From positions 1-48,578 of the IMG/VR virus record IMGVR_UViG_3300049489_000027: a DNA stretch of 48,578 nt; one strand, written 5' to 3'. The notes beneath the pieces were generated by a model. That model ran no database searches and was not told the origin of the DNA. It was given only the letters and a program-made list of their open reading frames with translations. Position numbers and translations under genes: made by a program. Positions 4,655-48,578 of this stretch are shown here, one piece after another (the stretch's first letter is position 1; each line of letters begins with the position of its first letter). This DNA is from a virus.

Positions 4655-4882
4655 TTACTCTGACTTTACCAGAGATGCTGTGCCCTTGGTTCCGACCGGT
4701 GCCGAAACTAGCGATGTAAGAACAGACAGAATGAATCCGCCTAGGAAGAAACTTCCGGCGCTACCCCAATCTGCACTAACCGCATCGAACAACTGGTCTG
4801 CACCCAAGAACAGAAGAACTGCCTGGACGCCAGTCTTGACTGCACGCTCAAAAGCGTCCTTCCAAAATGTTGCCGTATACAA
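4655..4882 (-). CDS. Holin (r1t-like)
   Basis: A 75-residue small membrane protein. It has an N-terminal amphipathic FWKDAFERAVKTGVQAVLLF segment, then a short loop (about 30-40) and a second hydrophobic segment (SFFLGGFILSVLTSLVSAP, about 44-62) with a charged end. Length and layout match r1t-family phage holins, which open the cell membrane at the end of infection. The start is TTG (4882) with GGAGGAGG about 8 bases upstream. A weak start codon could limit synthesis of a toxic protein. No endolysin gene adjoins it in this window. Confidence 0.82.
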   Translation of the reverse strand: MYTATFWKDAFERAVKTGVQAVLLFLGADQLFDAVSADWGSAGSFFLGGFILSVLTSLVSAPVGTKGTASLVKSE

Positions 4883-4909
4883 TATATTAACCTCCTCCGC
4901 AAAATGTCG

Positions 4910-5656: not shown

Positions 5657-5686
5657 TCAATACCTTTCGTGTATGCCTAGTCTACA

Positions 5687-5965
5687 CTAGAACGAAAATT
5701 CTGTCCAATCGGAATCGCAGCCCTTGGTAAAGTTGCAAAGGGCGTGAGCGGCCTGAACATTATCTTTTGTGTGCCGACCTCCGATGGCCAGCGGTACCAC
5801 ATGATCTAGTGTAGCAGCCATCAGGTTCGGAAGTCTAATCGTTTTGTCTATGGCCCCGTCACAGATTCCACACACCCAGCCGTCGCGCTCGAAGATTTCT
5901 AGTCTGTTAATTCGTTCGCCGGTCTTGTATACCCGGCGGCGGCGCGGCGAGTATTTAGGTGCCAT
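5687..5965 (-). CDS. HNH endonuclease (short form)
   Basis: A 92-residue HNH nuclease. Cys32 and Cys35 (CGIC) precede the catalytic LDHVVPLAIGG motif (Asp54, His55). Asn69 follows in KDNVQ, then His74 and a second half site, CNFTKG. The N-terminus is Arg/Lys-rich. The ATG at 5965 overlaps the upstream stop as TAATG, which argues for a resident gene in the operon rather than a recent insertion. Small HNH proteins may assist genome packaging when next to a terminase gene, but no terminase is near here. The role is therefore open: host DNA cleavage, processing or homing. Confidence 0.82.
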   Translation of the reverse strand: MAPKYSPRRRRVYKTGERINRLEIFERDGWVCGICDGAIDKTIRLPNLMAATLDHVVPLAIGGRHTKDNVQAAHALCNFTKGCDSDWTEFSF

Positions 5966-9800: not shown

Positions 9801-12800
9801 TTCTGACCACTTAGAACCCCATTCGTAGTAAGCAGAAGATGTAGTGTCTCCAGCGACTCTAGAAAGAGTCCAGCCTGGAATAGAAACACTGCTTGCGCCT
9901 GCCGTGTATCTAATTGGAAGTCTTGCCAAAGACCCGTTCTTTTCAAAACTTCCATTTTCTAGTAGGTTAGAGTTAAATAGGCCCAGGTCAACTCTATCGG
10001 TTTTTACAGTTCCGGTTGTGATAGAGTTTCCATCAATAATAGTGCCACCCCAGTTGTCAAAGGTGCTCGGAGTCGTTTGATTCCCTACCTGTTCTTCAAC
10101 CATCACAGAGTCAATTAGATATACTCCGGTAGCCGTAAATGTTGTAAATGACAGATTCGCCTTGGTGTCGTTGGCCCCCATTGTGATTACAGCGGAGTAC
10201 CTGTTCCATGTGGTTCCCGAAGAAAGCGACACAACAACCCCGGCAGGACTAGTAGAGTTACCAGTTAGTTTGAACGTTACGCTCTGCCCAGCCGAAGGAG
10301 CCTTTATCCATGCAGAAACAATATATTTCTTGCTTCCAGAAACAGTAAAATTGTAATCCGTTGCAGACGCTGCTAGATATACGCTCGGAGTAGTAGTGCT
10401 TGTGCAGTTGGCAGATAGAGACTGCGCGCCAGTGTTGAAGTTTCCAGCCCCAGACGCAATTGTCGCAGTAACATTTGTTGTTGTAAACTTACCAGACCAA
10501 AATGTACCAGTGCTATTATTTTCAAAATCCGCGTACTGGTTTGGTATAAGGTTCCTTCCTCGACCTCCTACCTGCACTTTATCCGCTGCTATTCCAGCAG
10601 TATTAACCATTGCAGATGTAATGGTGTCCGTGTTAATTCTTGCAGCGGAAAGAAAGCCGGTGCTAATATTTGCGGCATCTATATTTGTCACAGCAACGTT
10701 TGCAGCATTAATTGTTCCATCTTGAATATCTAGCCCGTTCTGATCTAATTGCCAGCCAGATGCACCTGGAGAATAGTTGTTGCTTTTAATCTTTCCACCG
10801 GCCCCGCTAACGGTAAGAACTCCGTCAGTAGCATCTCCAAGTGTTAGATTTTCTACGATTGCTGTTCCGGCCTTTAGTGCCGCAGCATCAAGGCTGTTAG
10901 TAGTAATTCCCCCACCATCGATGCTCGTAGATGCACCAGGAACCCAAGAACTAGCAACAGCGTTTGCCCCAAGACGCTGTTCAACCATAACTCCATCGAC
11001 ATAAATTGTCTGTGCTCCAACTGTGTTAACATCGGCAAAACTGATAAGCATGGACGCATCAGATGCACCAGTTGTGACTATTGCAGAATATTGTACATAT
11101 CCAGTGGTTAGAGTTACGGTGGCTGGGGTTGGTGTAAGCACACCGGCCACATTACCCTTAGCACGAATCTTGACTGTTGGTGCTCCTGACGCAGCCTTGA
11201 TGTATGCAGAGATAATATAGGTGGTCGATGCCTTTACCGGGATATTGTAGTCTGTTGAAGATGTTCCCAGGAATACCTCGTTTGTAGCACTTGTGGTATC
11301 AATCTTTAGAGAGTTAAGTCCGTTCCATTGGTTTCCGGCCACTACAGTAGCAGTAGCAGTTCCAGTCACCGCCAACTTTCCAGTGTAGTAGTTGTTTGGA
11401 GAAATTGGCCACTCGAAGGCAGCGTATTGTGCAGGAACCATGTTTGCTCCGCTACCGATTGACAATTTTCCTGCCGAAATTGTACCAGCAGTAATAACTC
11501 CACCGTCAATATTTCCAGATGACAACTGTGTTGTGGTAATTGTTCCAGACTCAATCCTGTCTGCATTCAGAGTTCCAGTAACAATCGAGGCACCGTCAAT
11601 AGTGGTCTGCGGCATCATGAAGGATGATGGAGTAAATCCACCAGTTGTGGCGGGAGAAGTGCTTAGCGCTCCCACTCTTTCCTCCATCATAAATCCGTCT
11701 ACATAGAATGTTCCTGCTGCTCCGAATTGGATTGTTGGGAGCACCGCCGATCTTCCAGCAGGGATTGTGAAGGTTCCGTAAACCCTGGTGCTAGTTGATG
11801 CCGTGGTGGTCCAAGAAGTCGCTCCTGAAATCGCAGACGGCGTGATAAACGAACCATCATCAGCCTTAAGTCTAATTGTCGCGGTCGCTCCGGTAGTGCT
11901 GTAGACATATGCCGAAACAATATAGTTCTTTGCAGCAGTAACAGGAACATTGTAGTCTGTAATTGTCTTGCCGAGGTAGAATCCCTGGTTAGCGCCAGAA
12001 GTAGTTACCTGTGCGCTCTGTGTTCCAAACTTCGGAAAGTTTGTTGATACACTTGGGGTGGCTCCATCTGCGGTAAGTTCGAATGCCTTTCCTGATCCAT
12101 AAAGAGCCGGTGTCGCCTGGAAACTTGCGTACTCTGGCTTGATAAGGTTGGTAGAGGCACCACCAACAGCAAGTTTATCTGTTGTTATACCGGCAGCGCT
12201 GATGTCACTTGCGACAATTGTTCCCGCAGCAATATTTCCAGCCGTAACCGCGTTTGCAGCAAGTTCATTTGTTGTAATAGCGTCTGTTGCAATTTCATTT
12301 GCGGTAATGGTATCTGCTGCAACCAGCCCCGCAGTAATTGTTCCAGGGAGAATCTCATTAGTTCTTGGAGCATATGCTGTTGCCACATCACCAATTTCTA
12401 ACTGAACATCATCAATATCAAAAACGTCGTTAGCAATATTATTGTAAAGTGCCAGCGGGCTCGGCGCTGTTCCACCAGTTGTTATAGTTGTAGAATATCT
12501 GGCCCAAGTTCCAGAGACTCCGGAAGTTAATGCTCCAGATGTAAGTCCATCCATCGCAAAGTGCAGTTCTCCTGTTCCAGACTGCCTGCGGACCCATGCA
12601 GAAAGTGTATATTTAGTGTTAATGTCTAGTGGGGTAGGAGATATTGTAAAGGTGGCCCGGTTTGTTCCAACGTTGCCACCAGTTGTTGCTGTATGTCTAA
12701 GAGCCTTGGTTCCGGCAATTCTTCCAGTAATAGATGTAAAGGTGGCGTTGGTGCCGGGGGACCATCCGAGCGGATTACCAGTAGTCCACGGAGTAGTTGC

Positions 12801-15800
12801 CCTGTCTTGACCGGCTTCAAATGAAGAGTTTGTGATCAAGTTTCCGCCACCCACAATAACAGAAAGTTTATTAGCAGTTACCGCCCCGGCGGCAAGTTCA
12901 CTTGCGGTAATTGCGTCAGCATTAATTTCTGCTGACGTAATTGTGTTGGCCGCAATTTGATTGGCCGTAATGGTGTTGGCCGCGATCTTGGCTGCTACAA
13001 TGCTTCCATCAAGAATCTCGTCAGGCTTCGGGGCATATGATGTAACAACGTCTCCAACCTCCAGTTGAACGCCATCTAGATATAAGTCAATAGTGTCTGA
13101 TATAGCGTATGCGCGTGCGCGTAGGTCAATCTTCCACGTAGTGTCGGCGCCGGGAACTGTCCAGGTTATAGAGCCCCTCTGCCATGTGGCTGTAGGCGTG
13201 TACTGCCCCTCAACAAAACTTGTCACACCGCTATTAGAGAGTACGGGGTTAAATTGTCCGGTTCCTGTGCGAGACCCCTTGTACCAGAAAGAAAGAGTAA
13301 GTTTAGTAATTGCACCGGCTGGCATAGTACCAGACTGCTGAATTGTGCGATAACCTGCAGTTGTAGATGCAGCAAGGTTCAGCCTCTGACTGCTTGCCCC
13401 ATAAACCTTTTCTGCTGTAGAAATTGTATTTGTAGCCGTAATTGTTCCAGAGGTTGCCGCAGTCCAATCATTAGCAACACCGTCAGCATTTGCGTCTAAC
13501 TCGAAGGACGAGTTGGCCAACAGATTGCCTCCGCCAATTGCTGCTCCCAACTTAGCAGCAGTTACAGCACCATCAACAAGTTTTGCAGTCTGAATAGTTC
13601 CATCTGTAATATCTGTTGTTCCGCTAACGCGAGATACCTGTGCCGCACCGGACGCCGGTCCATAAGATGCATGAGGACCATCAACGTCAAACGGTCGCAA
13701 CTTGAAGTAATAGTTTGTTGCATATGCTAAATCAGCCCCGGCACCATCGACCTTGGCAAAGAAGTAAGTGCCTGTCACAGTTCCAATTAATGTGGATCCG
13801 CTCGCCGTAAAGCCAGCAGTAGTTCCAACGTGTACCTCATAAGAAAGAACGTCCGCATTTGACATCGCCGTCCATCTAACATGGATTCCGCCAATTCCTG
13901 AAATTGCTGTTGGCGTTGGAATGGTTCCTGTAGGAACGTTTCCGTCAGAGGGGTTTCCAGCCGAGCCGACCGCGATGCTCGCAGGGGAGGTAGCGATCCA
14001 TCCAGAAGTATTTTCATTTCCACTGGCATCTAGGACCCTAACCCTTGCGTAATAAGTTGTTGACGGAGTAAGTCCGGTAAAAGACTCTGCCGATACCGCC
14101 GCCGCAACACCACCCGGCTGCGTCTTTGTCGTTACATCGGACGCAAACGTTCCGGACGTAGAGATTTGAACCTCTGCACGACCGTTACTATTTATATAGT
14201 CTGCGTCTGACGGGTTTGTCCACTTTACCATAAGGCTTGTAGCGCCTGTGCTTAGAGTTACTGAGGTAGGGTTTGCTGGTTTAGTTGTGTCAGCGGCTAC
14301 CGTTTGGTTGGCGAACGAGGTCCATGTTCCGCTGTTTCCAAGCGTACCATTAAAGTCATATGCAATAATGTCAAGGTTGTAAGCAACGCCAGGAACCAAA
14401 TTTCTAATTAGTGTCGAGGTTGTGTTTCCAACATCAATAATCGTCCAGTTGGTCGTTCCGTTAACCCTATAGCGCAGTTTGGTTCCAGCGTAGTTCTGAG
14501 AGGACGGGTTGGTCCACGTAACGTTTAAGATTCCTGTCCTGTTGCTTGTGTCAGCAGTGTCAAGCGCTCCTGTTACAGTCCCTACAGTCGTGGCACCGAG
14601 GGTTGTCACAGCACGGCTAGCATCTGCTGAGTAAGCGCTGTACCTTCCATAAACGTCCTTTACTCTAGAGCGGAAGTAGTAGGTTCCGTTAAAGGTTGGG
14701 GAAATCTGATAGTTAAAGGCAGTTGCTCGTCCAGTATATGCAGTAGTTGTTGGAGACGCAGCCGTTCCTGCGTAAACTTCTACTGCCTCCAGAATTGATG
14801 ACGGGTCACTTGGCGCTGTCCATGTCACATCAATTCCTCGCTGGGCTCCAGTTCCTAGAGCAGTAGTTAGCGTTGGTGCTGTAGGTGTGGCGGGAGCCGT
14901 TGCAAATGCCGAAGACTTGTTTAGAGCGCTAGAAGTTAAACCTGTAGGACCAACAGCATATACGTTAATCAGTGTTGCTGTATACGGCCAGTTGGCCCCG
15001 AAGTCCTTTCCTGCCTGCGGATCAATATCGATAAAATTGTCTGTAGTGTAATAAGTTTTTAGAGTGTTTGCCGTAATTTCCACCCGGTAATGCTTTACGT
15101 CTTGTGCTGGTGAAGATGAAGCGGTCCACGCAACTCGATAGTTTGCCCCAACATAAGATTCTACCAGTGATGTTGGGGCGTTTGGGGTGGCATATGTAAT
15201 ACCACCGGCCCCAGGAGTAGCCGTGGCCTGAGTTGCAAACCAGGCGGTCTGTCCAAATATATCAACCGCACCGACCCTAAAGTAGTATGGGGTTCCGGCT
15301 GTTCCGGAGAATGAGTAGGTGGTTAAAGGTCCCTGGTACGCAACCGTTCCGGTTGCTGCTGGGTCAAACCCATTAGAAGTGCTGTACTTAAGAACATAAG
15401 AAACAATATCTCCGGAGGTTCCTCCGCTCCAAACCACACTCGCTCCGCCAGGAACAGCAGTAGCCGTTAGAGATGTTGGCGCAGACGGAGAAGCATTTAC
15501 CTGTCGCTGCTGTGAGCCAGTAGACTTGTTGTTAGTGGTGTCTCTGGAGTACAGAGTAAAGTATGGCCCCGCATTACCAGAACCTCCAAACAACTCCTTG
15601 TTCATCTTGTATGTAAACTCAAACGTCTTTTCACGATCTACTGTGTCCAGAAGGCTTGGGTTCTGAACTTCTGGCAGGGTGTAAACTGCCGAGGCTGATC
15701 CGGCATAACTAGACGGCCTTACCTCTATTACATATTCCTTCATATCTTTAAGAACAGTTCCGTCAACGTTCTGCGTCGGAGCGGTCCAGGTTAGAATAAA

Positions 15801-31542: not shown

Positions 31543-31997
31543 CAGGCATCACTTCCAGCCAGAGAGGTGCTGTCGCCAGATGTTACCAGAGCGTCGGGCA
31601 ACTTAATATGTACCTCAGATTTGTTGCAGATAATGTCATACTCCATAAAAGATCCAAATGGATCAAAGGTCGGGGTGACTCCCAGAACGATAAACTGTTC
31701 GTCACCATATGGCAGACCGTTAGCATCCTTGATTCCGGCCACAACCCACCCCTCTTCGATTGGGTACATGGTCTTAACACGAAGATAGTGGTAATCGTCC
31801 AACTTGTTGCCCCAGTCTTGTAGGGTTCCAGAGTCTTTTCCTCTTAGATTCGCAAGTCCTCTAGCAACCATCTGAACTTCTACACCATTTAGATACTGAG
31901 CCTTTACCTGGCCCGTATTAGAATTTTGGACAGTAGACTTTTCATAGACAACTCCGGTCATATTGTACTTTCCAGAGGTTACACAGCCACCGATCAT
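31542..31997 (-). CDS. Head-tail stopper-like connector protein
   Basis: A 151-residue beta-rich protein located between the adaptor and neck genes, the usual position of the SPP1 gp16-like stopper. Visible strands include KTMYPIEEGWVVAGI and EQFIVLGVTPTFDPFG. It would close the head exit after packaging and receive the tail. The ATG overlaps the upstream stop as ATGA. Assignment by position and fold type. Confidence 0.6.
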   Translation of the reverse strand: MIGGCVTSGKYNMTGVVYEKSTVQNSNTGQVKAQYLNGVEVQMVARGLANLRGKDSGTLQDWGNKLDDYHYLRVKTMYPIEEGWVVAGIKDANGLPYGDEQFIVLGVTPTFDPFGSFMEYDIICNKSEVHIKLPDALVTSGDSTSLAGSDA

Positions 31998-32884
31998 ATA
32001 AGCACCATCCCAATAGACTTGTACTTAGACAAAATCTGATCAGCGAAGAAGTTTCCGGTGCCCTGGAATTGCTTCTGATTAAATACTACCCTCCAGTCAG
32101 AAGCGTTGATCTGCTCGACAAAGCGCTTCTTCCAAGCGGTCTCCTTGCAGAAGTAATCGTCAGCCAGCAATCTTGCACAGTATTCTACTTCGTCTGGAAC
32201 GGCTTCCCAGCCATAAAGCCCATCAATTGTGTACCAGCGATATTTGTTCCATTTAGTCGAACTAGGTTCTGCAACCCATACCGGCACCTCGTCATATTTG
32301 GTGGCCAGAATGCCGTAATTAGTGTCAGTAATTTCAAGGTTCCTCCCGAATTCGTTGTAGGCTGGATCTCTTGTCCATACGGTCTCGTTATCCATAGCAA
32401 TATTATCTAGTCGAATTATTCTATGGGGTAGAACTAGAACGTTTTGGTCGTTGCCATGCATCTTGATGGAGTCCAGGCGCTGCCCGAACTGCTGACCGGT
32501 GTAGTTATTGATCATATATCTAGCAAACAGTTCTGCATTTTCTAGTTCTAGATCACTAGTTCCTGCCGGGGCTAGGTCACGAAGATCAGCAAAGTTGGCG
32601 TATGGAGTGACTACTGAGATATAGTCTACTCTGGAATAGGTGTCTGCAGAAACTAGATATGTCCACTCTACGCGGAGAGTCTGCTCTACCTCTACCTCAG
32701 AGAATTCTGTTAGAAAGTAATAGACTCCGGTGGACTCTCCCGTGGCCGTGCCGGTGCGTGCGGCAACGTCTGACCCAACAATGGTCAGCGAATAGGTCGG
32801 CGGAGCATCTGCATTTACCGGGGCTCCATCCAGAAAGACATTTAGGTAGACTTTTTCAGTCGATCCTACATAAATTTGTTTCAT
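31994..32884 (-). CDS. Head-tail adaptor with N-terminal Ig-like domain
   Basis: A 296-residue protein. The first 95 residues look like an immunoglobulin-type beta sandwich (YVGSTEKVYLNVFLDGAPV ... VEWTYLVSADTYSRVDYISV). The rest is helical and resembles gp6/gp15-type adaptors (FADLRDLAPAGTSDLELENA, then a helical C-terminus). It would bind below the portal. The ATG at 32884 has GAGGTG about 5 bases upstream, and a promoter-like element is at 32911-32939. The extra Ig-like domain could be exposed at the neck. Confidence 0.65.
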   Translation of the reverse strand: MKQIYVGSTEKVYLNVFLDGAPVNADAPPTYSLTIVGSDVAARTGTATGESTGVYYFLTEFSEVEVEQTLRVEWTYLVSADTYSRVDYISVVTPYANFADLRDLAPAGTSDLELENAELFARYMINNYTGQQFGQRLDSIKMHGNDQNVLVLPHRIIRLDNIAMDNETVWTRDPAYNEFGRNLEITDTNYGILATKYDEVPVWVAEPSSTKWNKYRWYTIDGLYGWEAVPDEVEYCARLLADDYFCKETAWKKRFVEQINASDWRVVFNQKQFQGTGNFFADQILSKYKSIGMVLI

Positions 32885-32941: not shown

Positions 32942-35900
32942 CTAGGATGATCGGACACCCCCGCCCGTCGATCCGGAAGAAGAGACTCCACCTGAGGCCT
33001 CAGAGGACCCATCAACTCTAGATTTGCTTACAGAATTCTGTACAGAAATACCATTAGAAGCATTTCCTCTAGACCTTACTCCAACTCCAGGCGTCTGTGT
33101 TGTACCTCTAGAACTAACCTCGCCAATATCCATTTCTCCGACGAATCCGGAGTCGCTGGATGAGACTTGGGTCGAATCGTCGGATGTTATCGAGATTAGA
33201 ATAAATAGGTCAGAAGTCTCAGAGGATGTTATTTCTGTAGAGTCATTGCTGATTATTGGCTGGGCATTAAACGAGACTGTCTCTGCGGACCCAATTTGGG
33301 TAGAGTCTGCGCTGGTTACAGTTCCATATACAGACGAAGCCTCTGTGCTTGAAATCTGAGTGGTGTCAGATCGACTTACCAATACACTCAAACTTGGCGT
33401 ATCAGAAGTCGTTATGTTTGTAGAGTCATTAGACGATACAGAGACGTTTCCAATTACCTGAACGTTAGAGGTTTCTGTAGAAGATATTATTGTGTTGTCT
33501 GATCCTGGCAACTGGGCGACTGGGAACCCAGAGTCACTAGAAGTAATCTGGGTGCTATCAGTCGAAGCAACCTGTCCCTGAATACTTACAGACTCTTGGC
33601 CGGTGATCTGAGTGCTATCAGATCTTGTAAACGCTACAGTAGCAAACGAGCCGGAGTCGGCAGATGTTACCTGCGTAGAGTCGGCAGATACTACATATGT
33701 GGTAATAACTAGATTGCTGGTTTCGGACGATCCAATTTGAGTAGAGTCAGACCCACTTACATCTACTCCGCCGGTCGCCTGAACGTCCGATGTTTCGGAA
33801 GACGCGATCTGTGTAGAATCAGTCCTGTTTACAACTACCAGTGGAGAAGAGGAATCCACAGAAGTAATTTGCGTAGCGTCTGTACGACTAAAGTTAACCT
33901 GCCCGAAACTTCTAGTTTCGGAAGAAGAAATCTCTGTCGCGTCCGACCTGTTTACAATTACCAGAACAGAACTTGTTTCGCTAGACGATATGTTGGTAGA
34001 ATCATTAGAGTTAAGGTTAAACCCTCCAGATACCTGAATATCTGAGGTTTCAGAAGATGAAACGATAGTATTGTCTGTTCCTGGGAACTGCGCCTGCGGT
34101 ATTCCAGAGTCAGCCGAGGTGACCTGGGTAGAGTCTGTTGCTGTAAATGCTACTGTTGCGAACGATGTAGATTCACTAGACGATATCTCGGTGGAATCTG
34201 CTCTAGAGACAATAACAAGAATGCTGCTGGTTTCAGAACTTGATATCTGAGTGGTGTCCGAGGCCGGTACCGCAACGGTTGCGAAAGAACTGGCTTCCGA
34301 AGAGGTTATCTGTGTCGAGTCCGGCCTGCTCAGCGTCGAGTATATTCCAGAAGTTTCTGTGCTTGAAATACTTGTTGTATCGGTTCGGGTAAAATTAACC
34401 TGTCCGAAGGAAGATGACTCTGCAGATGCTATTTGTGTCGAATCTGGCCTAGATACAATTACAAGAACCTGGCTAGTTTCAGAAGAACTGATATTCGTGG
34501 AGTCGCTTCCATTAACATCAATTCCACCACTGGCCTGAATGTCAGAAGTTTCAGAGGATCCGATTTGTGTAGAGTCAGATCCTGGGAATTGGGCCTGTGG
34601 AGTGCCCGTTTCCGAAGAGGTTATCTGTGTCGAGTCAGACGCCGAGAAATTACTTTGTCCGAATGTGCCAGAGTCCGTTCCTTGAATTTCTGTAGAATCT
34701 GTGCGTGTAAAGGCCACCGTACCGAAAGAACTACTGTCAGAACCGGCTATTTCCGTAGAATCTGCTGCAGAGCGGATAACCGTTCCGAACTGCGAGGTTT
34801 CACTGGAACTGATCTGAGTGCTATCAGTACGAGTAAATGCCACTGTACCAAATGAAGATACGTCACTAGAAGTAATCAGTGTGGCATCGCTAGATGATAC
34901 AGTTACAAATACTGTTCTAGATTCTGTGCTAGAGATATCTGTTGTGTCAGAGGCGCTTCGCGGCACCGTCGCAAACTGGCTAGTCTCCGTGGAGGTTATC
35001 TCGGTAGAATCTGTACGGCTCAGAGTCGAGTAGATACTAGACGTTTCAGCACTGGTGATTTGAGTGCTGTCTGTTCTTGTGAAATTAACCTGCCCGAACG
35101 ATGATGCGTCAGAAGAGGTAATTAGCGTAGCATCTGAACTGGTTATTGTTACAACGATGCTGCTTGTTTCAGAAGAACTGATTTGGGTCGAGTCTGTTCC
35201 AGATTTGTCGAACGTACCAGAAATTTGAAGGTTAGATGTTTCGCTAGAGGTTACTAGCGTTGTGTCTGTTCCTGGGTTGTTGATAAATACAGACGAGGTT
35301 TCTGCAGATGTGATCTGCGTAGAGTCCGCTCTTGTAAATGCTACTGTTCCAAAACTGCTTGCATCGCTGGAGGTAATCAGTGTGCTATCTGTTCTGCTCA
35401 GTGTAGACTGAATTGCACTGGTCTCAGCAGATGTAATCTGTGTCGAGTCTGCAGAGGAAATTGGAACAATTACTGTTCCTGCATCTGTAGAACTAATCTG
35501 AGTCGTGTCAGAGGTGGCTACATCAATATCTGCGCTTGGTCCGATCCAGGTCAGGTCACCGACCGCAAAGTCTTCTACATATCGGGTATGGTTTACTGCG
35601 TTATAGTTACCGATACCAACTACAGAAATTTCATTTCCGTTATCAGTTAGGGCTACCTGAATTTCCTGGTCTGCCGTTCCGGTCGAGTGTCGGTTGGCTC
35701 CAGACCATACTCTTAGGGTTGACAGGTCTCCGTCTCTATCAACCTTAAGTTCGATACGGTGCCAACCGTTTGCCAGCGACGAAATTGGAGTGCCAGTAAC
35801 CCAAGATGATCCATTGAATAGTGTTAGGTTTCCGTTAGCCTCTTCACGAATACCAGCAATATCGTCTCCTGGCGGGCTGGCACTTGCGGAGGTTTCGAAG

Positions 35901-38161
35901 ATCATGAAGCGGTTTACGCCAGACGGGTTGCCGGTCTTGTAGTAGTAGAATCGTGCGTACCATGTTCTACGGCTTACAAGGTTTTCTATCTTACCGCGCT
36001 TACCCTGGGCGGCTGTGGTGGAAACAAATAGTCCTCCGGTTCCTCCCTGTAGCGGGAAGTCATTGCTGAACTCCATTGTTCCTGTTCCTGGGAACAGGGT
36101 GAATAGAGAGTTGCTAGAGGTTATTGCTACTCCGTCGCCCCCACCGTTAAACCTCTCGTGATGACGAATTAGTTGATTGGCTCCAGTGTCAACATTTGAC
36201 GTTTCAGACGAACTAATCTGCGTAGAGTCCGTTGCACTCTTGCTTAGCGTATCAGCAATGCTACTAGAGTCTGTCGAGGTAATTAGCGTAGAATCTGAGG
36301 TTGTGACTGTTCCAGATACCGAGCCGGTCTCAGTAGAAGTAATTTCTGTGCTATCAGATCTTGTCAGGGAGGCCTGAGTTGCTGAAGTTTCAGCAGAGGT
36401 AATCTGAGTGCTATCTGTTCTAGAAAGCGTAGACTGAATTGCTCTTGTTTCCGTAGATGTAATATCTGTTGTGTCTGTTCTGGTAATATTAGCCTGAACA
36501 GCAGATGTTTCGCTAGAGGTAATTTCGGTAGAATCTGCACGAGTTAGCGTAGACTGAATTGCTCTAGTTTCAGTGCTGCTAATATCTGTGGAGTCTGTTC
36601 GAGTAAAGTTAATTTGTCCGAACGAGCGACCCTCTGTGCTGTTAACGTCTGTTGCGTCTACTCGGTTTAGAATTACAAGAACGCTGCTGGTTTCGCTAGA
36701 ACTTATCTGTGTAGAATCTGTTCCAGATTTGTCAAACGCTCCGGTGGCAATAACCTCAGAGGTTTCAGATGAACTTACTAGTGTGGCGTCTGATCCTGGG
36801 AAGTTTGCGGTTGTGTTGCTGGCGTCTGTTCCTGTGATCAGCGTCGAGTCTGTGCCGCTAAAGTTAACCTGACCGAAACTGCTAGAATCCGTTGAAGTTA
36901 TCAGAGTTGTATCTGGTCGGTTCAGCGTTGATGTTATAGAACTAGTTTCAGTGGAGGTTATAAGGGTGCTATCTGTGCTTGAAATCTGTACGACTACCGA
37001 GGCTGTTTCGACAGGGGTAATATGTGTAGTGTCTGTTCTTGACAGAGTAGACTGAATAGATGCTGTTTCTGTAGAGGTAATGTTTGTTGTGTCTGGGCGG
37101 TTTAGACTAGACAGCAACTGTGAAACAACATCAGAAGATGTTATGTTTGTCGTGTCCGAGGTTGTTGCAGTAGAAGATATTGATGATGTTTCTGTGGATG
37201 TTATTTGTGTCGAATCATTTCCACTGAATGTTGCTGTGGTAGCAGAGGTTTCAGAAGAACTTATTTGTGTAGAATCCGTACCCGTCTTTGCGGTAGATCC
37301 AGTGTCATATGGCCCTATCCACTCCTGGTTACCCCAGGCGACTGTATCAAAATCATAAACAATTGTGGCCCCTCCGGTTTCGTTAGGACCAATTCCAAAT
37401 CTTTCAAATGTTCCGGTGTTTAATGATCCAGAGAGTTCAAATACTCCGGTACCCAGTTCTATTGCATCGGCGGGGTCAGAAGACTCTAAATTTGCGCCCG
37501 TCCAAACCCTCAGGGCCTGCGTGCTATTCGCATAATCTACCTTCCATTCAAACCTGTACCATGTGTTTGTTTGAAAAGCATAAACCGCCTCATTACCCTC
37601 ATCTACGGTTACAAGGCCGTTTCTAATTCTTACAGAACCTCCGGAAGTAATCTGCACACCGGCCCTAATGGTAGTCCCTGTAGTAGTATCGTAAAGAAGA
37701 ATTACTGTGTTGTTTGCCAACTGGTCGGCATCCCATTTCATATACAGCCTTATATATGCCGTTGAAAGTGTAGAGCCAAAGTTTATGGCAGCGCGGGACT
37801 GTGCGCTGACAGAGTTAAACCTAGCGTGTAGACTTCCGTGAAGAGGAGAAGCATTTGAAATAGATGCTGTCGAAGATCCAGAGTTTGCAATAGCGTCAAT
37901 TATTGTATTTGTTGTTACAGCGCTACCGTTAGAACTGTTTTCAAAAGTTTCTTCTTCTGCTATTTTTCTAGTTGCAAGTGCTGTTTCAGTGGAAGTTATT
38001 TCAGTAGAATCAGTTCTGGTAAAATCAACCTGAGCGAAACTGGATGACTCTGTAGATGTTATCTGTGTAGAGTCATTTGATGTTATCGGAGTCGGTCCAC
38101 CGCCACCGCCAGCCTGCTGCTGCGCTATCGCATCGAGCGCGGAATAGAACCAGAACGACAT
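32942..38161 (-). CDS. Giant Ser/Thr/Asp-repeat virion protein with two LamG-like domains
   Basis: A 1739-residue protein. About 58 copies of a roughly 20-residue unit have the core D-[STA]-T-x-[IV]-[TS]-S-x-[ED]-[TS], as in TDSTQISSSETSS. Two copies precede a first LamG-like domain (about residues 62-285). Some 18 copies lead to a second (about 655-880), and about 38 follow. Both LamG-like domains end in a W.GP motif (QEWIGP, LTWIGP) and share LRVW.GAN, so they are paralogous. The C-terminal 70 residues are Gly/Ser-rich. The gene sits between small head genes and the head-tail adaptor, so a head fibre or neck appendage is the likely role. The repeats could form a beta-solenoid or an extended stalk. 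The ATG at 38161 follows the upstream stop by one extra TAA codon. Confidence 0.82.
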   Translation of the reverse strand: MSFWFYSALDAIAQQQAGGGGGPTPITSNDSTQITSTESSSFAQVDFTRTDSTEITSTETALATRKIAEEETFENSSNGSAVTTNTIIDAIANSGSSTASISNASPLHGSLHARFNSVSAQSRAAINFGSTLSTAYIRLYMKWDADQLANNTVILLYDTTTGTTIRAGVQITSGGSVRIRNGLVTVDEGNEAVYAFQTNTWYRFEWKVDYANSTQALRVWTGANLESSDPADAIELGTGVFELSGSLNTGTFERFGIGPNETGGATIVYDFDTVAWGNQEWIGPYDTGSTAKTGTDSTQISSSETSATTATFSGNDSTQITSTETSSISSTATTSDTTNITSSDVVSQLLSSLNRPDTTNITSTETASIQSTLSRTDTTHITPVETASVVVQISSTDSTLITSTETSSITSTLNRPDTTLITSTDSSSFGQVNFSGTDSTLITGTDASNTTANFPGSDATLVSSSETSEVIATGAFDKSGTDSTQISSSETSSVLVILNRVDATDVNSTEGRSFGQINFTRTDSTDISSTETRAIQSTLTRADSTEITSSETSAVQANITRTDTTDITSTETRAIQSTLSRTDSTQITSAETSATQASLTRSDSTEITSTETGSVSGTVTTSDSTLITSTDSSSIADTLSKSATDSTQISSSETSNVDTGANQLIRHHERFNGGGDGVAITSSNSLFTLFPGTGTMEFSNDFPLQGGTGGLFVSTTAAQGKRGKIENLVSRRTWYARFYYYKTGNPSGVNRFMIFETSASASPPGDDIAGIREEANGNLTLFNGSSWVTGTPISSLANGWHRIELKVDRDGDLSTLRVWSGANRHSTGTADQEIQVALTDNGNEISVVGIGNYNAVNHTRYVEDFAVGDLTWIGPSADIDVATSDTTQISSTDAGTVIVPISSADSTQITSAETSAIQSTLSRTDSTLITSSDASSFGTVAFTRADSTQITSAETSSVFINNPGTDTTLVTSSETSNLQISGTFDKSGTDSTQISSSETSSIVVTITSSDATLITSSDASSFGQVNFTRTDSTQITSAETSSIYSTLSRTDSTEITSTETSQFATVPRSASDTTDISSTESRTVFVTVSSSDATLITSSDVSSFGTVAFTRTDSTQISSSETSQFGTVIRSAADSTEIAGSDSSSFGTVAFTRTDSTEIQGTDSGTFGQSNFSASDSTQITSSETGTPQAQFPGSDSTQIGSSETSDIQASGGIDVNGSDSTNISSSETSQVLVIVSRPDSTQIASAESSSFGQVNFTRTDTTSISSTETSGIYSTLSRPDSTQITSSEASSFATVAVPASDTTQISSSETSSILVIVSRADSTEISSSESTSFATVAFTATDSTQVTSADSGIPQAQFPGTDNTIVSSSETSDIQVSGGFNLNSNDSTNISSSETSSVLVIVNRSDATEISSSETRSFGQVNFSRTDATQITSVDSSSPLVVVNRTDSTQIASSETSDVQATGGVDVSGSDSTQIGSSETSNLVITTYVVSADSTQVTSADSGSFATVAFTRSDSTQITGQESVSIQGQVASTDSTQITSSDSGFPVAQLPGSDNTIISSTETSNVQVIGNVSVSSNDSTNITTSDTPSLSVLVSRSDTTQISSTEASSVYGTVTSADSTQIGSAETVSFNAQPIISNDSTEITSSETSDLFILISITSDDSTQVSSSDSGFVGEMDIGEVSSRGTTQTPGVGVRSRGNASNGISVQNSVSKSRVDGSSEASGGVSSSGSTGGGVRSS
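33140..38110. repeat. About 58 coding copies of a 60-bp repeat in the giant virion gene
   Basis: The blocks lie at about 33140-35520, 36185-37285 and 37990-38110, interrupted by the two LamG-like domains. Most copies have diverged, but exact DNA repeats remain. The 19-base string gcgtagactgaattgctct occurs at 36427-36445 and 36547-36565, exactly 120 bases apart (two units). Near 34290 and 34611 a longer identical string begins ttccgaagaggttatctgtg. A higher-order pattern recurs every 8-14 units in the 24-residue copies with a Gly/Asp/Lys insert. Confidence 0.85.
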
Positions 38162-38164
38162 TTA

Positions 38165-38512
38165 TTATGCCACTTTTCGAATAGACCAGTCTATCGAGCG
38201 ATCTGTTCCAGCAATTTTAGTTATACTATACTCCCAGCCGTGTAGAAAGATCATTGTAGGGGTAACATAGTGAGGGGATCCCATTGGTCCCGCCACATTT
38301 TCTTCCATTACAACTCTAGACGTACCGGCAGAGGTAACTCTTTCGTAAACCCTGACACGATAAATATCTCCGGCTGCCAGAGCAGACATATTCAGAAATA
38401 GTTGAAAAACTCCGTCGTCAGTCTGATCAGTCTTTGTGGTAGAGTTAGACGCCAAAAATCTTTCCGTGGTTGTTATAGTTGCTGTGTTAGTGAATGCTTC
38501 TGATAGTGCCAT
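38165..38512 (-). CDS. Hypothetical virion-associated protein
   Basis: A 115-residue beta-rich protein with no recognised family. It runs from an N-terminal Thr-rich strand (FTNTATITTTERFLASNST) to a C-terminal DWSIRKVA strand. The layout resembles a small jelly-roll of the sort used as accessory head or fibre proteins. The ATG at 38512 follows GGAG about 10 bases upstream. It lies between a duplicated beta-sandwich gene and the giant repeat gene, so a structural role is likely. Confidence 0.6.
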   Translation of the reverse strand: MALSEAFTNTATITTTERFLASNSTTKTDQTDDGVFQLFLNMSALAAGDIYRVRVYERVTSAGTSRVVMEENVAGPMGSPHYVTPTMIFLHGWEYSITKIAGTDRSIDWSIRKVA

Positions 38513-38514
38513 TT

Positions 38515-39342
38515 TTAATCAACTCCATAAATTATTGATGAGAATGATACCGCTGTAGAGGCTACGGCAAACTGTAATTGGGTCGCCGCCGGAATGTCCC
38601 ACATTCTAGTCGCTAGAGTTTGATTTACTGACTCGTATCCAATAGACTCTGTACCAGTATCAGTTGCAAGTAGCAGGTCGTCAATTATGACGCTGGTGCC
38701 CAACTGAATTCTTGCCCATCCATATGCGTCAACCACTGTTGTTCTGTTTCCTGGGTCAATGCCCATCTGCATGTACCTAATTGGGTTTGTTGTAGAGGCT
38801 GTCAGTTGTGTGGCCGTTCCGTAGGTGCTTGTCGCACCGGCTGTGTGCAACTGCCCACGACTGTTGGCAGAGTCTACTCCATAGGCAGTTACTCTTGTTC
38901 CAACGAATCCCAACTGCGTTGGTCGCTGCATTAGTGTAATTGCCACGGAACAGGTTTTTGAGGCCACCACCGACTGAGACCTGGCCGAAAGCCTGGTTCC
39001 TGCCGGAATAAAGAGGGGAAAGGTATATGTTCTCCAAGCATTTGTTGATGCTACAGGGTGAATCCATCCAGCCATAAGGTCCGGAATCAGGACAGTCTCG
39101 GAGCCAGCACCGCCACTCATGATATCCAATAGGGTTGCTGTGGTCGCGTTTGAGGAAGCATTGTTGTGAACGTGAATCTGAATTCCATATGAATCATTAG
39201 CAGTTGATGCAATCAACTGCGTTGGGGTGGCACCCTTAGTATTGATTGTAGCGTTTGCCGTTATTGTTGTTCCAATTCCTGGCGCGGTTGGAGTCACTTC
39301 TGTTAAAAGTGATCCATGCCTTACTCCTGAATTCATTAACAT
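38515..39342 (-). CDS. Virion structural protein with duplicated beta-sandwich domains
   Basis: A 275-residue protein starting MLMNSGVRHG. Two similar halves are visible: GATPTQLIASTANDSYGIQI with FPLFIPAGTRL, and then TATQLTASTTNPIRYMQMGI with MWDIPAATQL. This indicates a tandem duplication of one beta-sandwich domain. The ATG at 39342 has AAGGGG 8 bases upstream; an in-frame start at 39360 would lack one. A terminator for the upstream HNH gene ends just before it. It is probably a head-decoration or appendage component. Confidence 0.65.
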   Translation of the reverse strand: MLMNSGVRHGSLLTEVTPTAPGIGTTITANATINTKGATPTQLIASTANDSYGIQIHVHNNASSNATTATLLDIMSGGAGSETVLIPDLMAGWIHPVASTNAWRTYTFPLFIPAGTRLSARSQSVVASKTCSVAITLMQRPTQLGFVGTRVTAYGVDSANSRGQLHTAGATSTYGTATQLTASTTNPIRYMQMGIDPGNRTTVVDAYGWARIQLGTSVIIDDLLLATDTGTESIGYESVNQTLATRMWDIPAATQLQFAVASTAVSFSSIIYGVD

Positions 39343-39367
39343 ATAGTTTTCCCCTTTCATAAAATAA

Positions 39368-39452: not shown

Positions 39453-39971
39453 CTAGGCTTGTTCTGCTGCAAGCGTCACGGACTTGATATTGTGCGACCC
39501 GCAATCTCGGCATTCTTGAACAATACCTTTGCCGTGGTAACGCTTTCTGAGTTGGAGATTTTCTATGCGATTATCAGTCTTGTCTCCGTTTATGTGATGG
39601 ACAGATTCGTCCTCAGTTAAAAGTCTACCCAGTTTTTCCTCCATCACCAGGCGGTGTTGCGGAACATACTTCCCGCTATATGCCTTTGGGTGATCAGGAT
39701 TATATGAAAGAATATATCCCTCGCTGTTAAATACCAGCCCGTCATTCCGACAATCTTTACATTCGCCAGTCTTTCTTCTCCCCCTCTTAACGTCTGCAAG
39801 TATTGCTTGGACAGCCCTGTACCCTCTAGACCCGCACCGCGAGCATATAAAAGCGACTAATGTACCCCTGCGGCCTTTTGACACATCACCTTGAACTTGA
39901 TCTGAAAGGTCATACATCTCGTGCATGAATTCTGGAAGATCTTCCTTTTTTAAAAGCCTTGCTTTTGGCAT
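39453..39971 (-). CDS. HNH homing endonuclease, probable mobile gene
   Basis: A 172-residue nuclease with an HNH_3-type core: QHRLVMEEKLGR (His106), SVHHINGDKTDN (His125, His126, Asn134). Three CxxC zinc pairs occur at C43/C46, C71/C74 and C154/C157. It interrupts the run of head genes, does not overlap its neighbours, has its own AGGAG 4 bases from the ATG, and is bracketed by terminators on both sides. This pattern is typical of free-standing homing endonucleases that spread by cutting related phage genomes. A packaging-related HNH role is less likely given this placement. Confidence 0.85.
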   Translation of the reverse strand: MPKARLLKKEDLPEFMHEMYDLSDQVQGDVSKGRRGTLVAFICSRCGSRGYRAVQAILADVKRGRRKTGECKDCRNDGLVFNSEGYILSYNPDHPKAYSGKYVPQHRLVMEEKLGRLLTEDESVHHINGDKTDNRIENLQLRKRYHGKGIVQECRDCGSHNIKSVTLAAEQA

Positions 39972-40071: not shown

Positions 40072-40455
40072 TCAGGTTGCAGGCACGGTCAGTGTAAGAG
40101 TCACTGTAAATTGCCAAGTCTGTGCTGAGGTCTTGGTTCCAAGAGACTCTACCTTACGGTTAAGCATTGTACCGCCTGTGGACTGGTTGTTGAAAATACC
40201 CCATTCCTGCCACGCTACGTTGGCAACACCGGTTCCAAATGTTGAACGGGCGGTGATAACGTTGGCTGCTACCTGCGGATAGGTTGCGTCACATGCTACA
40301 CGAGCAGACTCTGTGGTTAGAGTTGTCTGTGATGCTGCGAATGCTGTAGTACCTGTTCCAATGGCAATAGCGCTGTTGGCGTTGCTAAACGGAGTTGCCG
40401 CCGGGGTGACAATAGCACTTGTTAGGAAGTCTCTTCCTGCGTTAGTTACTGGCAT
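40072..40455 (-). CDS. Virion structural protein (fibre or head-associated)
   Basis: A 127-residue beta-rich protein with the pattern SNANSAIAIGTGTTAFAASQ and VAWQEWGIFNNQ then TGGTMLNRKVESLGTK. I recognise this as a small structural family common in phages near head or tail genes, often joined to fibres. Its function is not established. The ATG at 40455 directly follows the upstream stop codon, with GGAGG about 7 bases away. A strong terminator follows at 39987-40023. Confidence 0.62.
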   Translation of the reverse strand: MPVTNAGRDFLTSAIVTPAATPFSNANSAIAIGTGTTAFAASQTTLTTESARVACDATYPQVAANVITARSTFGTGVANVAWQEWGIFNNQSTGGTMLNRKVESLGTKTSAQTWQFTVTLTLTVPAT

Positions 40456-40647
40456 TTAGTTTCCTCCTTCCGCGCCGTGTATGATATGTTCTACAATCTC
40501 ACCATTCTCAATGATAATGGTTTCGACTGGTTCTCCCGCGAGACCGGCATCGATTTCCTCTGCGGTAAAATCTCCATCGTACTTGTGCAGCACTGCACGA
40601 GTTTCCTCTGCAATTACTTCACTAGGATCAAAGATGGCCTCTGTCAT
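40456..40647 (-). CDS. Hypothetical small acidic protein
   Basis: A 63-residue acidic protein (MTEAIFDPSEVIAEE ... AEGGN) without recognised motifs. The ATG at 40647 overlaps the upstream stop as ATGA, so it is probably translated by coupling with the SAP-like gene. It sits in the short operon between the major capsid terminator and the next structural genes. A head-related role is possible but not shown. Confidence 0.6.
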   Translation of the reverse strand: MTEAIFDPSEVIAEETRAVLHKYDGDFTAEEIDAGLAGEPVETIIIENGEIVEHIIHGAEGGN

Positions 40648-41027
40648 GAGTAATACTCCTGAACTTCCTTCGGCGTAGCCACAGCAAATCCTCGTGGCTC
40701 CAAATCAAAAATGTCCTGGGCGTCGTCTTCACTCATAGCAACGTATGGGTGCTCACTGGTGAATCGGTGCCCACGAATTTCGTAGGTTGGGTTAGCCTTT
40801 AGCATCTTTACTAGAACCTGAGGGCCTGCGGCAACCTTCTTCGGTGCCGGAGCCTCTACCTCAGCCTCTACATGCTCGGCGTCTTCGAACTGTCCGAGTA
40901 CCTCGTCAGTTACGCCCTCTTCTACTAGGCGCGCAAGAATATCAGCCTTCTTTGTTGCTCCGTCCAATTCGACGGCAAAGGCCTCTGCGATCTCTCGCAA
41001 TTCTGCTACCTTCTTCTTTTCAAGCAT
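40644..41027 (-). CDS. Head-associated protein with SAP/HeH-like helix-extension-helix motif
   Basis: A 127-residue protein. The N-terminal 36 residues (KKVAELREIAEAF, DGATKKADILARLVEEG) fit a SAP/HeH-type helix-extension-helix, which often binds nucleic acid. An acidic Pro/Ala linker follows (about 45-65), then a C-terminal part (TYEIRGHRFTSEHPYVAMSE) like those of small phage head proteins. I use the ATG at 41027, because AAGGAGG lies 5 bases before it; an upstream in-frame start would begin before the promoter at 41053-41081. It is the first gene after the major capsid terminator. Confidence 0.68.
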   Translation of the reverse strand: MLEKKKVAELREIAEAFAVELDGATKKADILARLVEEGVTDEVLGQFEDAEHVEAEVEAPAPKKVAAGPQVLVKMLKANPTYEIRGHRFTSEHPYVAMSEDDAQDIFDLEPRGFAVATPKEVQEYYS

Positions 41028-41052
41028 AAAAACCTCCTTGTAGTCTGAAACA

Positions 41053-41081
41053 ATTATAGCACTCAGGGCTTTATGTGGCAA
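41053..41081 (-). promoter_or_regulatory. Sigma70-like promoter downstream of the capsid terminator
   Basis: Minus-strand TTGCCA (41076-41081, 5/6) and TATAAT (41053-41058, 6/6) have 17-base spacing. It starts 6 bases after the terminator stem at 41087-41114. The predicted leader of about 20 bases contains AAGGAGG for the gene at 41027. Confidence 0.65.
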
Positions 41082-45893: not shown

Positions 45894-48578
45894 TTAGCGT
45901 ACTGTAATGACCTGAGATTCCCAATTGTCTGAGTAGAACTTGGGGGCTGTGTCGCTCAGTGTACGCGAACCGGTGTCAAGACCGGACCCAGAAATCACAT
46001 CTCCCAGGTAAGCCTTGTAGTTCGCCTGCACATCTGCTACTGTAAATGTGTTTGGGTAGTAGGCAATGTTTTGGTATCTGGCTTCTGAGGGCAGAGTCGC
46101 CGCTCCGAACGGACTTCTTCCTAGCCAAAGCCTGGAGTCTGGATAGGTCCAGTTGGTTGAAGTCCCCTCGTTGAGACTAAGCCTGTCTACATGATAAATT
46201 TCTCCCACAACAGCGTTAGAAATATAATAATACACCCTTGCCTTAACTGCTCCGGGGGGACAAATTCCAGTTACAAAGTGCCTATTCCAAGACGTAGACA
46301 TTGTTTGGAGGCTTCCAGTAGACTGCTCTATCGTTGATCCTGCAAGGTTCTGCCAAAGGATCAGCGGATTGGTTCCCCTTGTGGAGTTTGGAGACTTAGT
46401 GTCATATGAGAAGGTATATGTTCTACCTGGAGCCACCGCCGGAATATCCATGAAAGCGTTAATGTGTCCAGTCGCAACCGTCTTTTGAACTTCAAGCGAA
46501 GCGCCTCCGTGCTGATACGCTGTCGTTATTCTAGCAACTTGTGTATTATTTGATGTTCCCCAGAATGTTATACCGGTCTCGATGCTTGCTTGGTCTGGCG
46601 TCAATATATTTGGGTAGTTCGTTGTGCCTGGCATTGTCCATTGCCTAGAAGTTCCCTCCCAAATACCGAGGCAGTCGTAGTAGTGAAGATCTCCAGAAGT
46701 TCCCCCTGTGGTATGAGCCACTAGGTCGGCCTTGGTAGCCGTGCTTGGCGCGACTCCAGTAGCACTTACTTGGACCCATCCTGTAGTATTTGTTGCGGTA
46801 TTTGTTCCTGTCACCACTGAGCCCTGCTGAACTCCCGCATCATTGTAAAAGTACATAAAGATGTTTGCAGTTCTAGAAATCGTTCCGGCCTTTACCATTG
46901 CTGAGGCCGTATATGTTCTTCCACCAACAACGCTTACCTTATCAGAAATAGTGTTTCCAGTCCATACTCCGGCTGGATTTGTATTCAAGGTTGTTATTTG
47001 AACAGACGCTCCTCCGTGAAACGAGTGGGAGGTGACCCTGATTGAAGCACTAGCACCTCCGCCTCCATGAATAAGGCCTGTCATATCAGTTTCTATAGAT
47101 GCCTGATTAGCCGTCAACATGTTTGCTGGTAGAGGACCGTCAGTGTTGATTGTAAGTTGTGTCGATGCATTTGTCAGAATAATATGGTGCCATCTGTTGT
47201 ACCACGTTGTTGAAGTAGTTGTGTTGGCAGTCGCAACCCCATCAACATAAAGAGTTGTAAATCCGTTTGTTACAAACCCTCCCGAGTTATAGTATGACAT
47301 AGAGTATTCCGTTGGCCCATCATAGTAGACATATCCACCCTGTACAACTGGGTATAGCCAAAACTCTATGGTTCTAATCTGTGCCGCTGCCCCAGCAAGC
47401 GAGGCTCCGGAGCCGCCCTGCGGAACAGAAGTGTTTAGCCTGTCGTCTACAGGTAGAAGATACATATTTCCGCTTACATCAGCGTGAGCGCCTCCATAAA
47501 ACGGCTGCCTTGCCATAGGTATAGAAGGCGTATAAAGTCTTGCCCTGCCCGCATACTCTATTTGGTCCCAGCCATTTTCAGCAAAGCAGGCGGAGTCAGT
47601 GAACGCATCCATTTTTAGTTCGTTCAGTTTCGTCACTCGGTAGTAGGAATCGTCTGTTGAAAGCCTGACCGTAGAAAAATACTGTGCCGGAAGTGTAGTT
47701 GGGAATCTGTCCTTAATAATTTCTGACCCATTTGTAGCAACCTGATATGGCTCCCCCCAGGTTGTCGAGGTGCCCTCCCAGATACCGATCTCATCCCAAT
47801 AAGTAATTTCTCCGGCTCCGGTCGGAGTATAAGTGTAGAACTGAAGAGAAGCGGTCACACTTTCAGCAGGCGCCACTGCAGTAATAGGTACTTGGGTCCA
47901 CCCTGTAGTAGTAATAGGAACAGCAGCCGCCACCGATTGACTAATAGTAGTTCCATTACTGCGATACCAACTAATAGTTACTCGGGCAGACCTACTGGCA
48001 ACAGAAGATTTAGCAGAGCCAACAGCCGTATATGTTTTTCCCGCTGCCACTGGAATTCTGGTAACAGTTTCTGTTGTTGCTACGCTGTCCAACGCTCCGG
48101 TAGATGTCACCGCCAAACTAGCAGATCCGCTTAATGCTTGTGATGTAGATCGAGAAATAGTAGAGTTAACAAATACCGAAAAACCGGCAATGTCAGGCTC
48201 TACTGTTGCCTGAGCATATGTAAGTAGATTATTAACACCGTCCGGAGATGTCTTAACAACAACATCGTTGTTCCTTGGCGACCAGGTTATCTGTGTCTGA
48301 TCAATAGTTACTGGGGTGTCAACTCCAGTCATCACCGAAATGGACGCAGAACCTGTCTGAGAAACATTCAAACTGTTGGCAAGTTTTAGAGTGTATCCAT
48401 TGACAGAAGTCTTGTTGTATTCAAAGTCCGCTGTTGGCTGTGGCCTATTGTATAGTTTTACCCATTTGAAGTAATTGTTCCAGGTACGGGTCTTGTCTGC
48501 ACCGCCGCCAATTACAGCATATGAAGCATAGTCAAACTTGGGAGACAACACCCCTGCGTCAAATGCAATTACAGCAGG
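45894..48578 (-). CDS. Virion fibre protein with CBM-like modules and split LamG domain (5' end beyond window)
   Basis: The reading frame stays open to the right edge, so at least 895 residues are encoded here and the start is missing. Three carbohydrate-binding-like modules are visible, each ending in an (I/L)WEGTS or LNEGTS...W..P motif. A LamG-like domain begins near 47390 (TIEFWLYP ... WYNRWHHIILTNASTQLTI). It appears to continue only near 46140 (LWLGRSPFG ... YYPNTFTVADVQANYKAYLG), with two CBM-like modules between the halves. The C-terminus is DSGSRTL-like and short. It lies immediately upstream of the portal operon, an unusual place for a host-binding protein. Host attachment or a head appendage is likely. 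Confidence 0.75.
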   Translation of the reverse strand, partial: PAVIAFDAGVLSPKFDYASYAVIGGGADKTRTWNNYFKWVKLYNRPQPTADFEYNKTSVNGYTLKLANSLNVSQTGSASISVMTGVDTPVTIDQTQITWSPRNNDVVVKTSPDGVNNLLTYAQATVEPDIAGFSVFVNSTISRSTSQALSGSASLAVTSTGALDSVATTETVTRIPVAAGKTYTAVGSAKSSVASRSARVTISWYRSNGTTISQSVAAAVPITTTGWTQVPITAVAPAESVTASLQFYTYTPTGAGEITYWDEIGIWEGTSTTWGEPYQVATNGSEIIKDRFPTTLPAQYFSTVRLSTDDSYYRVTKLNELKMDAFTDSACFAENGWDQIEYAGRARLYTPSIPMARQPFYGGAHADVSGNMYLLPVDDRLNTSVPQGGSGASLAGAAAQIRTIEFWLYPVVQGGYVYYDGPTEYSMSYYNSGGFVTNGFTTLYVDGVATANTTTSTTWYNRWHHIILTNASTQLTINTDGPLPANMLTANQASIETDMTGLIHGGGGASASIRVTSHSFHGGASVQITTLNTNPAGVWTGNTISDKVSVVGGRTYTASAMVKAGTISRTANIFMYFYNDAGVQQGSVVTGTNTATNTTGWVQVSATGVAPSTATKADLVAHTTGGTSGDLHYYDCLGIWEGTSRQWTMPGTTNYPNILTPDQASIETGITFWGTSNNTQVARITTAYQHGGASLEVQKTVATGHINAFMDIPAVAPGRTYTFSYDTKSPNSTRGTNPLILWQNLAGSTIEQSTGSLQTMSTSWNRHFVTGICPPGAVKARVYYYISNAVVGEIYHVDRLSLNEGTSTNWTYPDSRLWLGRSPFGAATLPSEARYQNIAYYPNTFTVADVQANYKAYLGDVISGSGLDTGSRTLSDTAPKFYSDNWESQVITVR

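Follow-up and report, generated by a model that had tools for sequence, protein, structure and literature searches.

A 20-residue repeat protein with lectin-type domains and a linked tail-collar-like protein form a candidate phage fiber module

Introduction

In R pyocins and P2-like phages, the N-terminal collar domain DUF3751 is thought to link the fiber to the baseplate (PMC6363177). Fibers are also found on phage heads, and those of phi29 are a helical repeat, according to a title cited in PMC12796354. Here we report a locus that resembles the first of these systems by its collar-like protein and the second by its gene position. The locus lies in the IMG/VR record IMGVR_UViG_3300049489_000027, which was analyzed over its whole length of 48,578 bases (the window) and is possibly a genome fragment. 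This DNA is related to Streptomyces phages of Stanwilliamsviridae; the major capsid proteins of JimJam and Yaboi share 67-68% identity with the one it encodes.

The locus encodes a long repeat protein together with two small proteins, p63 and p127. We give about an even chance to the proposal that the repeat gene provides the shaft and the adhesin of a portable fiber module, docked via the collar-like protein p127. The trio of p63, p127 and repeat protein appears not to have been described before.

Results and Discussion

The repeat gene and its cassette

The repeat gene runs from 38161 to 32942 on the minus strand, like the neighboring structural genes. The original prediction, made from the sequence alone, had named a reading frame of 1739 residues with exactly these ends (32942..38161), and we add its strand. 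An iterated position matrix identifies 58 units of 20-24 residues in the protein, while 50 residue shuffles of it gave a mean of 0.1 and a maximum of 1; a lag of 20 residues gives an identity of 0.200, whereas no shuffle exceeded 0.122. Units are spaced by 20 (29 times), 21 (17 times), 22 (three times) or 24 residues (six times), and two breaks in the spacing, of 245 and 240 residues, are the sites of two ConA-like domains at residues 66-284 (37310..37966, minus strand) and 664-876 (35534..36172, minus strand). The domains thus split the array into runs of 2, 18 and 38 units (37967..38077, 36173..37279 and 33119..35512, respectively, all on the minus strand and delimited by the position matrix). 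The predicted anatomy of about 58 repeats with two embedded paralogous LamG-like domains is therefore borne out. Units of 24 residues had been expected every 8-14 units. By the matrix these are unit 11, which has a Gly/Asp/Lys insert (36719..36790), and units 25 (35195..35266), 36 (34505..34576), 44 (34004..34075), 48 (33749..33820) and 53 (33428..33499), all on the minus strand. The six recur after 14, 11, 8, 4 and 5 units, so that the expected range covers the first three intervals and is too narrow for the last two.

In JimJam and Yaboi, gp53 is followed about 57 bases on by the head-to-tail adaptor. The homologs of these genes in the window, the gp53 homolog on the capsid side (40644..41081, minus strand) and the homolog of JimJam gp54, annotated as head-to-tail adaptor (31994..32884, minus strand), bound a gap of 7.8 kb, in agreement with the earlier placement of the repeat gene between small head genes and the head-tail adaptor. 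The gap holds p63 (40456..40647), immediately upstream of p127 (40072..40455), an HNH endonuclease-like ORF (39453..39971), two accessory ORFs of 281 aa (38515..39360) and 115 aa (38165..38512) and the repeat gene, all on the minus strand. The repeat gene is separated by 3 bases from the ORF before it and by 57 from the adaptor. Neither accessory ORF has a Pfam or PHROGs family, and the 281-aa ORF had no relatives in viral contigs. The HNH-like ORF, recognized by sequence reading, is probably a passenger; a similar ORF also directly follows p127 in locus L118 (10464-10967). It could be a homing endonuclease marking a mobile cassette.

Neither Pfam nor PHROGs has a family for the window repeat protein, as the original prediction had supposed in finding no established family for the repeat. 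Among 14 relatives scanned, the repeats of 13 have no Pfam family and those of L144 gave weak matches below the cut-off; the divergent repeat of L006 matches two PHROGs of unknown function. The window protein found no match by tblastn against phages, and a patterned scan of viral contigs for it found nothing. Since direct searches with the protein failed, relatives were reached via scans with the capsid protein and p127. The repeats of L006, L180 and L134 also had no tblastn match in isolated phages, a result weakened by the low-complexity filter of BLAST. Against solved structures, the best match of the repeat profile was 9lx4 with an E of only 0.3, and it was set aside.

A linked module in different phages

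Complete intervals between gp53 and the adaptor were available for 69 capsid-family loci. In the nine that contain p127, the interval measures 3.2-7.8 kb and always encodes a protein with a 20-residue period (9/9). In the remaining 60 there is no repeat protein, and the interval is at most 59 bases in 58 of them. The cassette in the capsid clade is inherited with few gains or losses, since its label needs three changes on the capsid tree compared with about 20 when labels are shuffled.

All loci were then searched with a repeat profile, A6, of eight units and 56 rows, in which all eight Asp columns are at least 90% conserved. Of the p127 loci that extend 1.5 kb or more downstream, 53 of 71 have a repeat protein near p127; with the loci that contributed to the profile left out, the count is 39 of 57. 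In 76 loci without p127 the profile found no repeat (0/76), but these are mostly close relatives of one another and do not form an independent control. Whole genomes are a better control: seven of eight p127-bearing genomes or contigs match, and the repeat matches in the bacterial genomes (2.2-7.3 Mb) all fall within the gene adjoining p127, while eight annotated isolate phages gave no match. Homologs of p63 adjoin p127 in 64 of 93 loci and are absent where p127 is absent. That p63, p127 and the repeat protein form a genetically linked module is well supported by these counts. Against the fiber reading, it must be said that the link between p127 and the repeat is a genetic one, that 18 of the 71 p127 loci lack a nearby repeat protein and that the repeat was absent from all isolated phages examined.

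The repeat proteins of the module range from 200 to 1900 residues. The C-termini of those in L097, L103, L106 and L123 carry one to three motifs of the type K-V-Y-x-x-G-x-W and end in ...WS, while in L006 and L011 the ORF preceding the repeat gene closes with SSRW. Repeated FG/YG motifs, e.g. MFGHRYFGARYFGARYWG, were seen at the N-termini in L144 (15418), L178 (~12300) and L107 (10388). In L010, p127 is present as tandem copies (4837-5220 and 5458-5781), each with a p63-like ORF 5' of it.

An alignment of 84 p127 sequences was compared by hhalign with nine N-terminal domains of the P2 gpH type, one of which is annotated as PF12571 in its own record. The two profiles align over 89 columns with a score of 47.3 (probability 93.7%, E 2e-7), and 12 column-shuffled controls scored 8.6-16.5. 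Profiles are needed on both sides: p127 compared with P2 gpH as a single sequence gives no significant match, and Pfam returned no match for p127 at an E of 0.1. By this profile comparison, p127 is a free-standing relative of the tail-collar domain PF12571/DUF3751.

Position on the virion

The place of the repeat gene among head genes had led to the prediction of an extended fiber displaying two lectin-type domains on the head or neck. The extended repeat protein and the lectin-type domains stand, but the argument from gene position does not, given that homologous modules in many unrelated phages follow tape-measure, tail-tip or baseplate genes and that p127 is akin to a tail-fiber collar. Outside the window clade, genes 5' of p127 belong mostly to tape-measure families (up to 12 members per family among 85 proteins scanned), and four members of the same set match a major head protein family. 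The module is preceded by baseplate genes in L163 and by central tail fiber J in L107, and has baseplate genes beside it in SP-15 and LIS04. In the HK97-type prophage L181, the order is terminase, protease, major head protein, p127, repeat protein, head-tail adaptor, tail terminator and major tail protein. With modules found on the head side as well as the tail side of the head-tail boundary, a place on the virion cannot be read from gene order.

A head- or neck-mounted fiber would decorate the capsid or neck and stick the particle to surfaces, leaving host recognition to tail fibers. The position between gp53 and the head-tail adaptor in all nine complete cassettes of the window clade is what such a fiber would predict, as is the similar position, between major head protein and adaptor, in the unrelated prophage L181. 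In the window phage, distinct tail genes also follow the tape measure, and head fibers exist in phage 7-7-1, where their genes are unknown (PMC12796354). We nevertheless regard this explanation as doubtful, in view of the tail-side positions of homologous modules and the tail-fiber relationship of p127; moreover, a capsid-binding element was not identified. A three-gene module, its shaft carrying lectins or enzymes, that plugs into unrelated phages at two or more different sites, both at the head-tail junction and at the tail tip, is an idea we put forward tentatively.

The repeat unit and the predicted shaft

All 58 units in the window have Asp at position 1, Thr at 3, Ile or Val at 5 and Glu or Asp at 9. 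Identity between units at third codon positions is 0.326, while random codon choice for the same residues gives an expectation of 0.321 (sd 0.005), and both TCN and AGY codons occur at serine positions. On this codon evidence the array is old and under strong selection, because the amino acids are fixed while the synonymous sites are randomized; recent slippage or duplication and a low-complexity artefact are ruled out on the same grounds. Tandem repeat finder sees only about three units as DNA repeats. Elsewhere in the window, short tandem DNA repeats with a period of 30 are present at 12255-12983 within the gene of a 3052-aa tail protein.

Across the family (556 units from 20 proteins), hydropathy is high at positions 3, 5, 7, 13, 15 and 17, with polar residues between them. 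Position 1 is Asp in 81% and Glu in 18% of these units, and position 9 is Glu or Asp in 71%. With this alternation and the acids at 1 and 9, the 20-residue unit looks like a pair of amphipathic strands whose corners are acidic. In the homologous arrays of L180 and L181, Ala, Leu and Val largely replace Ser and Thr, so Ser/Thr content is not the conserved feature.

An AlphaFold2 model of eight units, built with alignment A6, has two strands per unit (mean pLDDT 72, pTM 0.64). A regular coil with short amphipathic strands, as in beta-solenoids, is indicated both by hydropathy over the 556 units and by the strands per unit in the model. In VIA, the eight-unit model aligned with the beta-helix of SufB/SufD (Z 15.4, rmsd 2.6, 168 residues), with Foldseek E-values above 1 for these chains. 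AlphaFold2 is, however, reported to build confident but unrealistic beta-solenoids from perfect repeats, the founding example being a permuted 20-residue unit of mucin-22 (PMC11795689), and the composition of the window-family unit is very similar to that of this permuted unit. Because of this bias the confidence of the solenoid model is to be discounted, and we take the model as weak evidence. Independent support for the beta-strands, though not for a solenoid, comes from the hydropathy pattern. If the 58 units were stacked as a solenoid, with an assumed rise of about 0.48 nm each, the shaft would be about 28 nm long, in three pieces.

The same features bear on another explanation, a mucin-like flexible stalk rich in Ser and Thr and possibly glycosylated, which would have no regular fold and would hold the lectins off the virion. 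The protein is 37% Ser plus Thr, contains no cysteine and has a net charge of -123, an earlier AlphaFold job with a shallow alignment left the repeats without structure (pLDDT 25-30), and related Streptomyces phages encode a glycosyltransferase near their head genes. Such a stalk is hard to reconcile with the strict spacing, the four near-absolute positions and the alternating hydropathy, or with the Ala, Leu and Val of the homologous L180 and L181 arrays, and we consider it unlikely.

Lectin-type domains

The two domains of the repeat protein are paralogous (28% identity, E 4e-12 in a single comparison). AlphaFold2 models the second as a beta-sandwich, with pLDDT of about 53-88 per block, and Foldseek against the PDB matches this model to the lectin domain of calreticulin (E 1.6e-7, probability 1.00) as well as to sialidase and legume lectins, several lectins reaching a probability of 1.00. 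Domain 2 thus has a predicted concanavalin-A-like jelly-roll fold, which domain 1 would share by paralogy. The ConA-like domain also matches viral ConA-like proteins. The Pfam models of LamG and ConA do not match either domain; the best weak Pfam match is Polysacc_lyase-like PF21340 (E 0.0013), and the domain profile found no match among solved structures. The two domains are probably sugar-binding.

In a relative of 1845 aa (L011:13466-19003), a PhoD-like phosphatase domain (PF09423) lies beside a ConA-like domain within the repeat array, and a second globular insert is also found inside this array. The PhoD-like domain fits a shaft on which the displayed domains can be exchanged. Samisti12 and relatives encode a stand-alone PhoD protein at ~80 kb. 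In Nostoc phage YongM (L092, 7040-9442), a PhoD gene is directly 5' of a gene annotated 'capsid fiber protein'; the latter was considered as a p127 relative and rejected, having no similarity to p127.

Upstream of the portal gene, the window encodes an 885-aa protein (45894-48551) with carbohydrate-binding domains (CBM_4_9, E 3e-14), whose relative in L011 has a LamG domain. At the corresponding place, upstream of the portal side, L005 has a repeat-plus-lectin protein (L005:2-2158), so such proteins can also occupy a second place close to the head genes.

Proposed function

The proposed module has the order p63, p127, accessory ORFs and repeat protein. Each 20-residue unit would give two short amphipathic beta-strands, and the units would stack into a stiff rod interrupted twice by a ConA-like lectin domain, giving pieces of 2, 18 and 38 units. 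The collar-like p127 may dock this fiber to the virion, at the tail or, in the window clade, at the neck, and the lectins could bind glycans of the host surface to give reversible attachment before DNA injection. Genetic linkage, the collar homology of p127, the conserved amphipathic units, the lectin-fold model and the PhoD-like insert in L011 all support the fiber reading, under which we infer a location on the virion, a contact between p127 and the shaft, the rod structure and sugar binding. A non-virion protein, for instance one secreted or placed on the host surface with a role in superinfection exclusion or lysis, for which the location of the module just 5' of lysis genes in some phages could speak, is highly improbable: no signal peptide or anchor stood out when the sequence was read by eye, the gene sits tightly in a structural block, and p127 is related to a structural domain.

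If the module is what we propose, one docking adaptor would allow phages to shift a long adhesin from neck to tail or back, its reach being set by the number of units. With the fiber on the virion, unit count would be a natural ruler of adhesin reach, and the shaft a scaffold for inserted lectins or enzymes, such as the two lectins in the window and the phosphatase-like domain in L011. A class of long, uncharacterized phage repeat proteins would gain a name and a partner, and a testable rule follows: where p127 is found, a 20-residue repeat fiber is expected adjacent to it. The module also cautions against reading virion location from gene order.

Comparison with known systems

LamG/ConA-like lectins occur in phage structural proteins, and a jelly-roll is predicted for the window domains too; unlike those lectins, the window domains sit as beads inside a repeat shaft and have no Pfam LamG match. 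With beta-solenoid shafts such as pectate lyase and the SufB/SufD beta-helix, the repeat shares two strands per 20-residue unit and alternating hydropathy. It differs from them in carrying acids at two corners of each unit, in Foldseek E-values above 1 and in belonging to a model class prone to bias. With the head fibers of phi29 (gp8.5), 7-7-1 and phiCbK, the window protein may share the form of a long appendage encoded near capsid genes, whereas its repeat is predicted to be all-beta, in contrast to the helical repeat of phi29.

The P2-type tail fiber, represented by P2 gpH and the R pyocin fiber, has the collar domain in common with p127 by profile comparison, and in several phages p127 follows baseplate or tail-tip genes as P2 gpH follows gpI. 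In the module, however, the collar is a separate small protein and the fiber is another gene with a 20-residue repeat, and in the window clade both sit among head-tail junction genes. Fusion of the collar to the fiber was looked for, and p127 was found to be a separate ORF of 127 aa rather than the N-terminal domain of a fiber polypeptide. For this reason we keep the repeat protein out of the P2 fiber family and class it as a new variant of phage fiber proteins.
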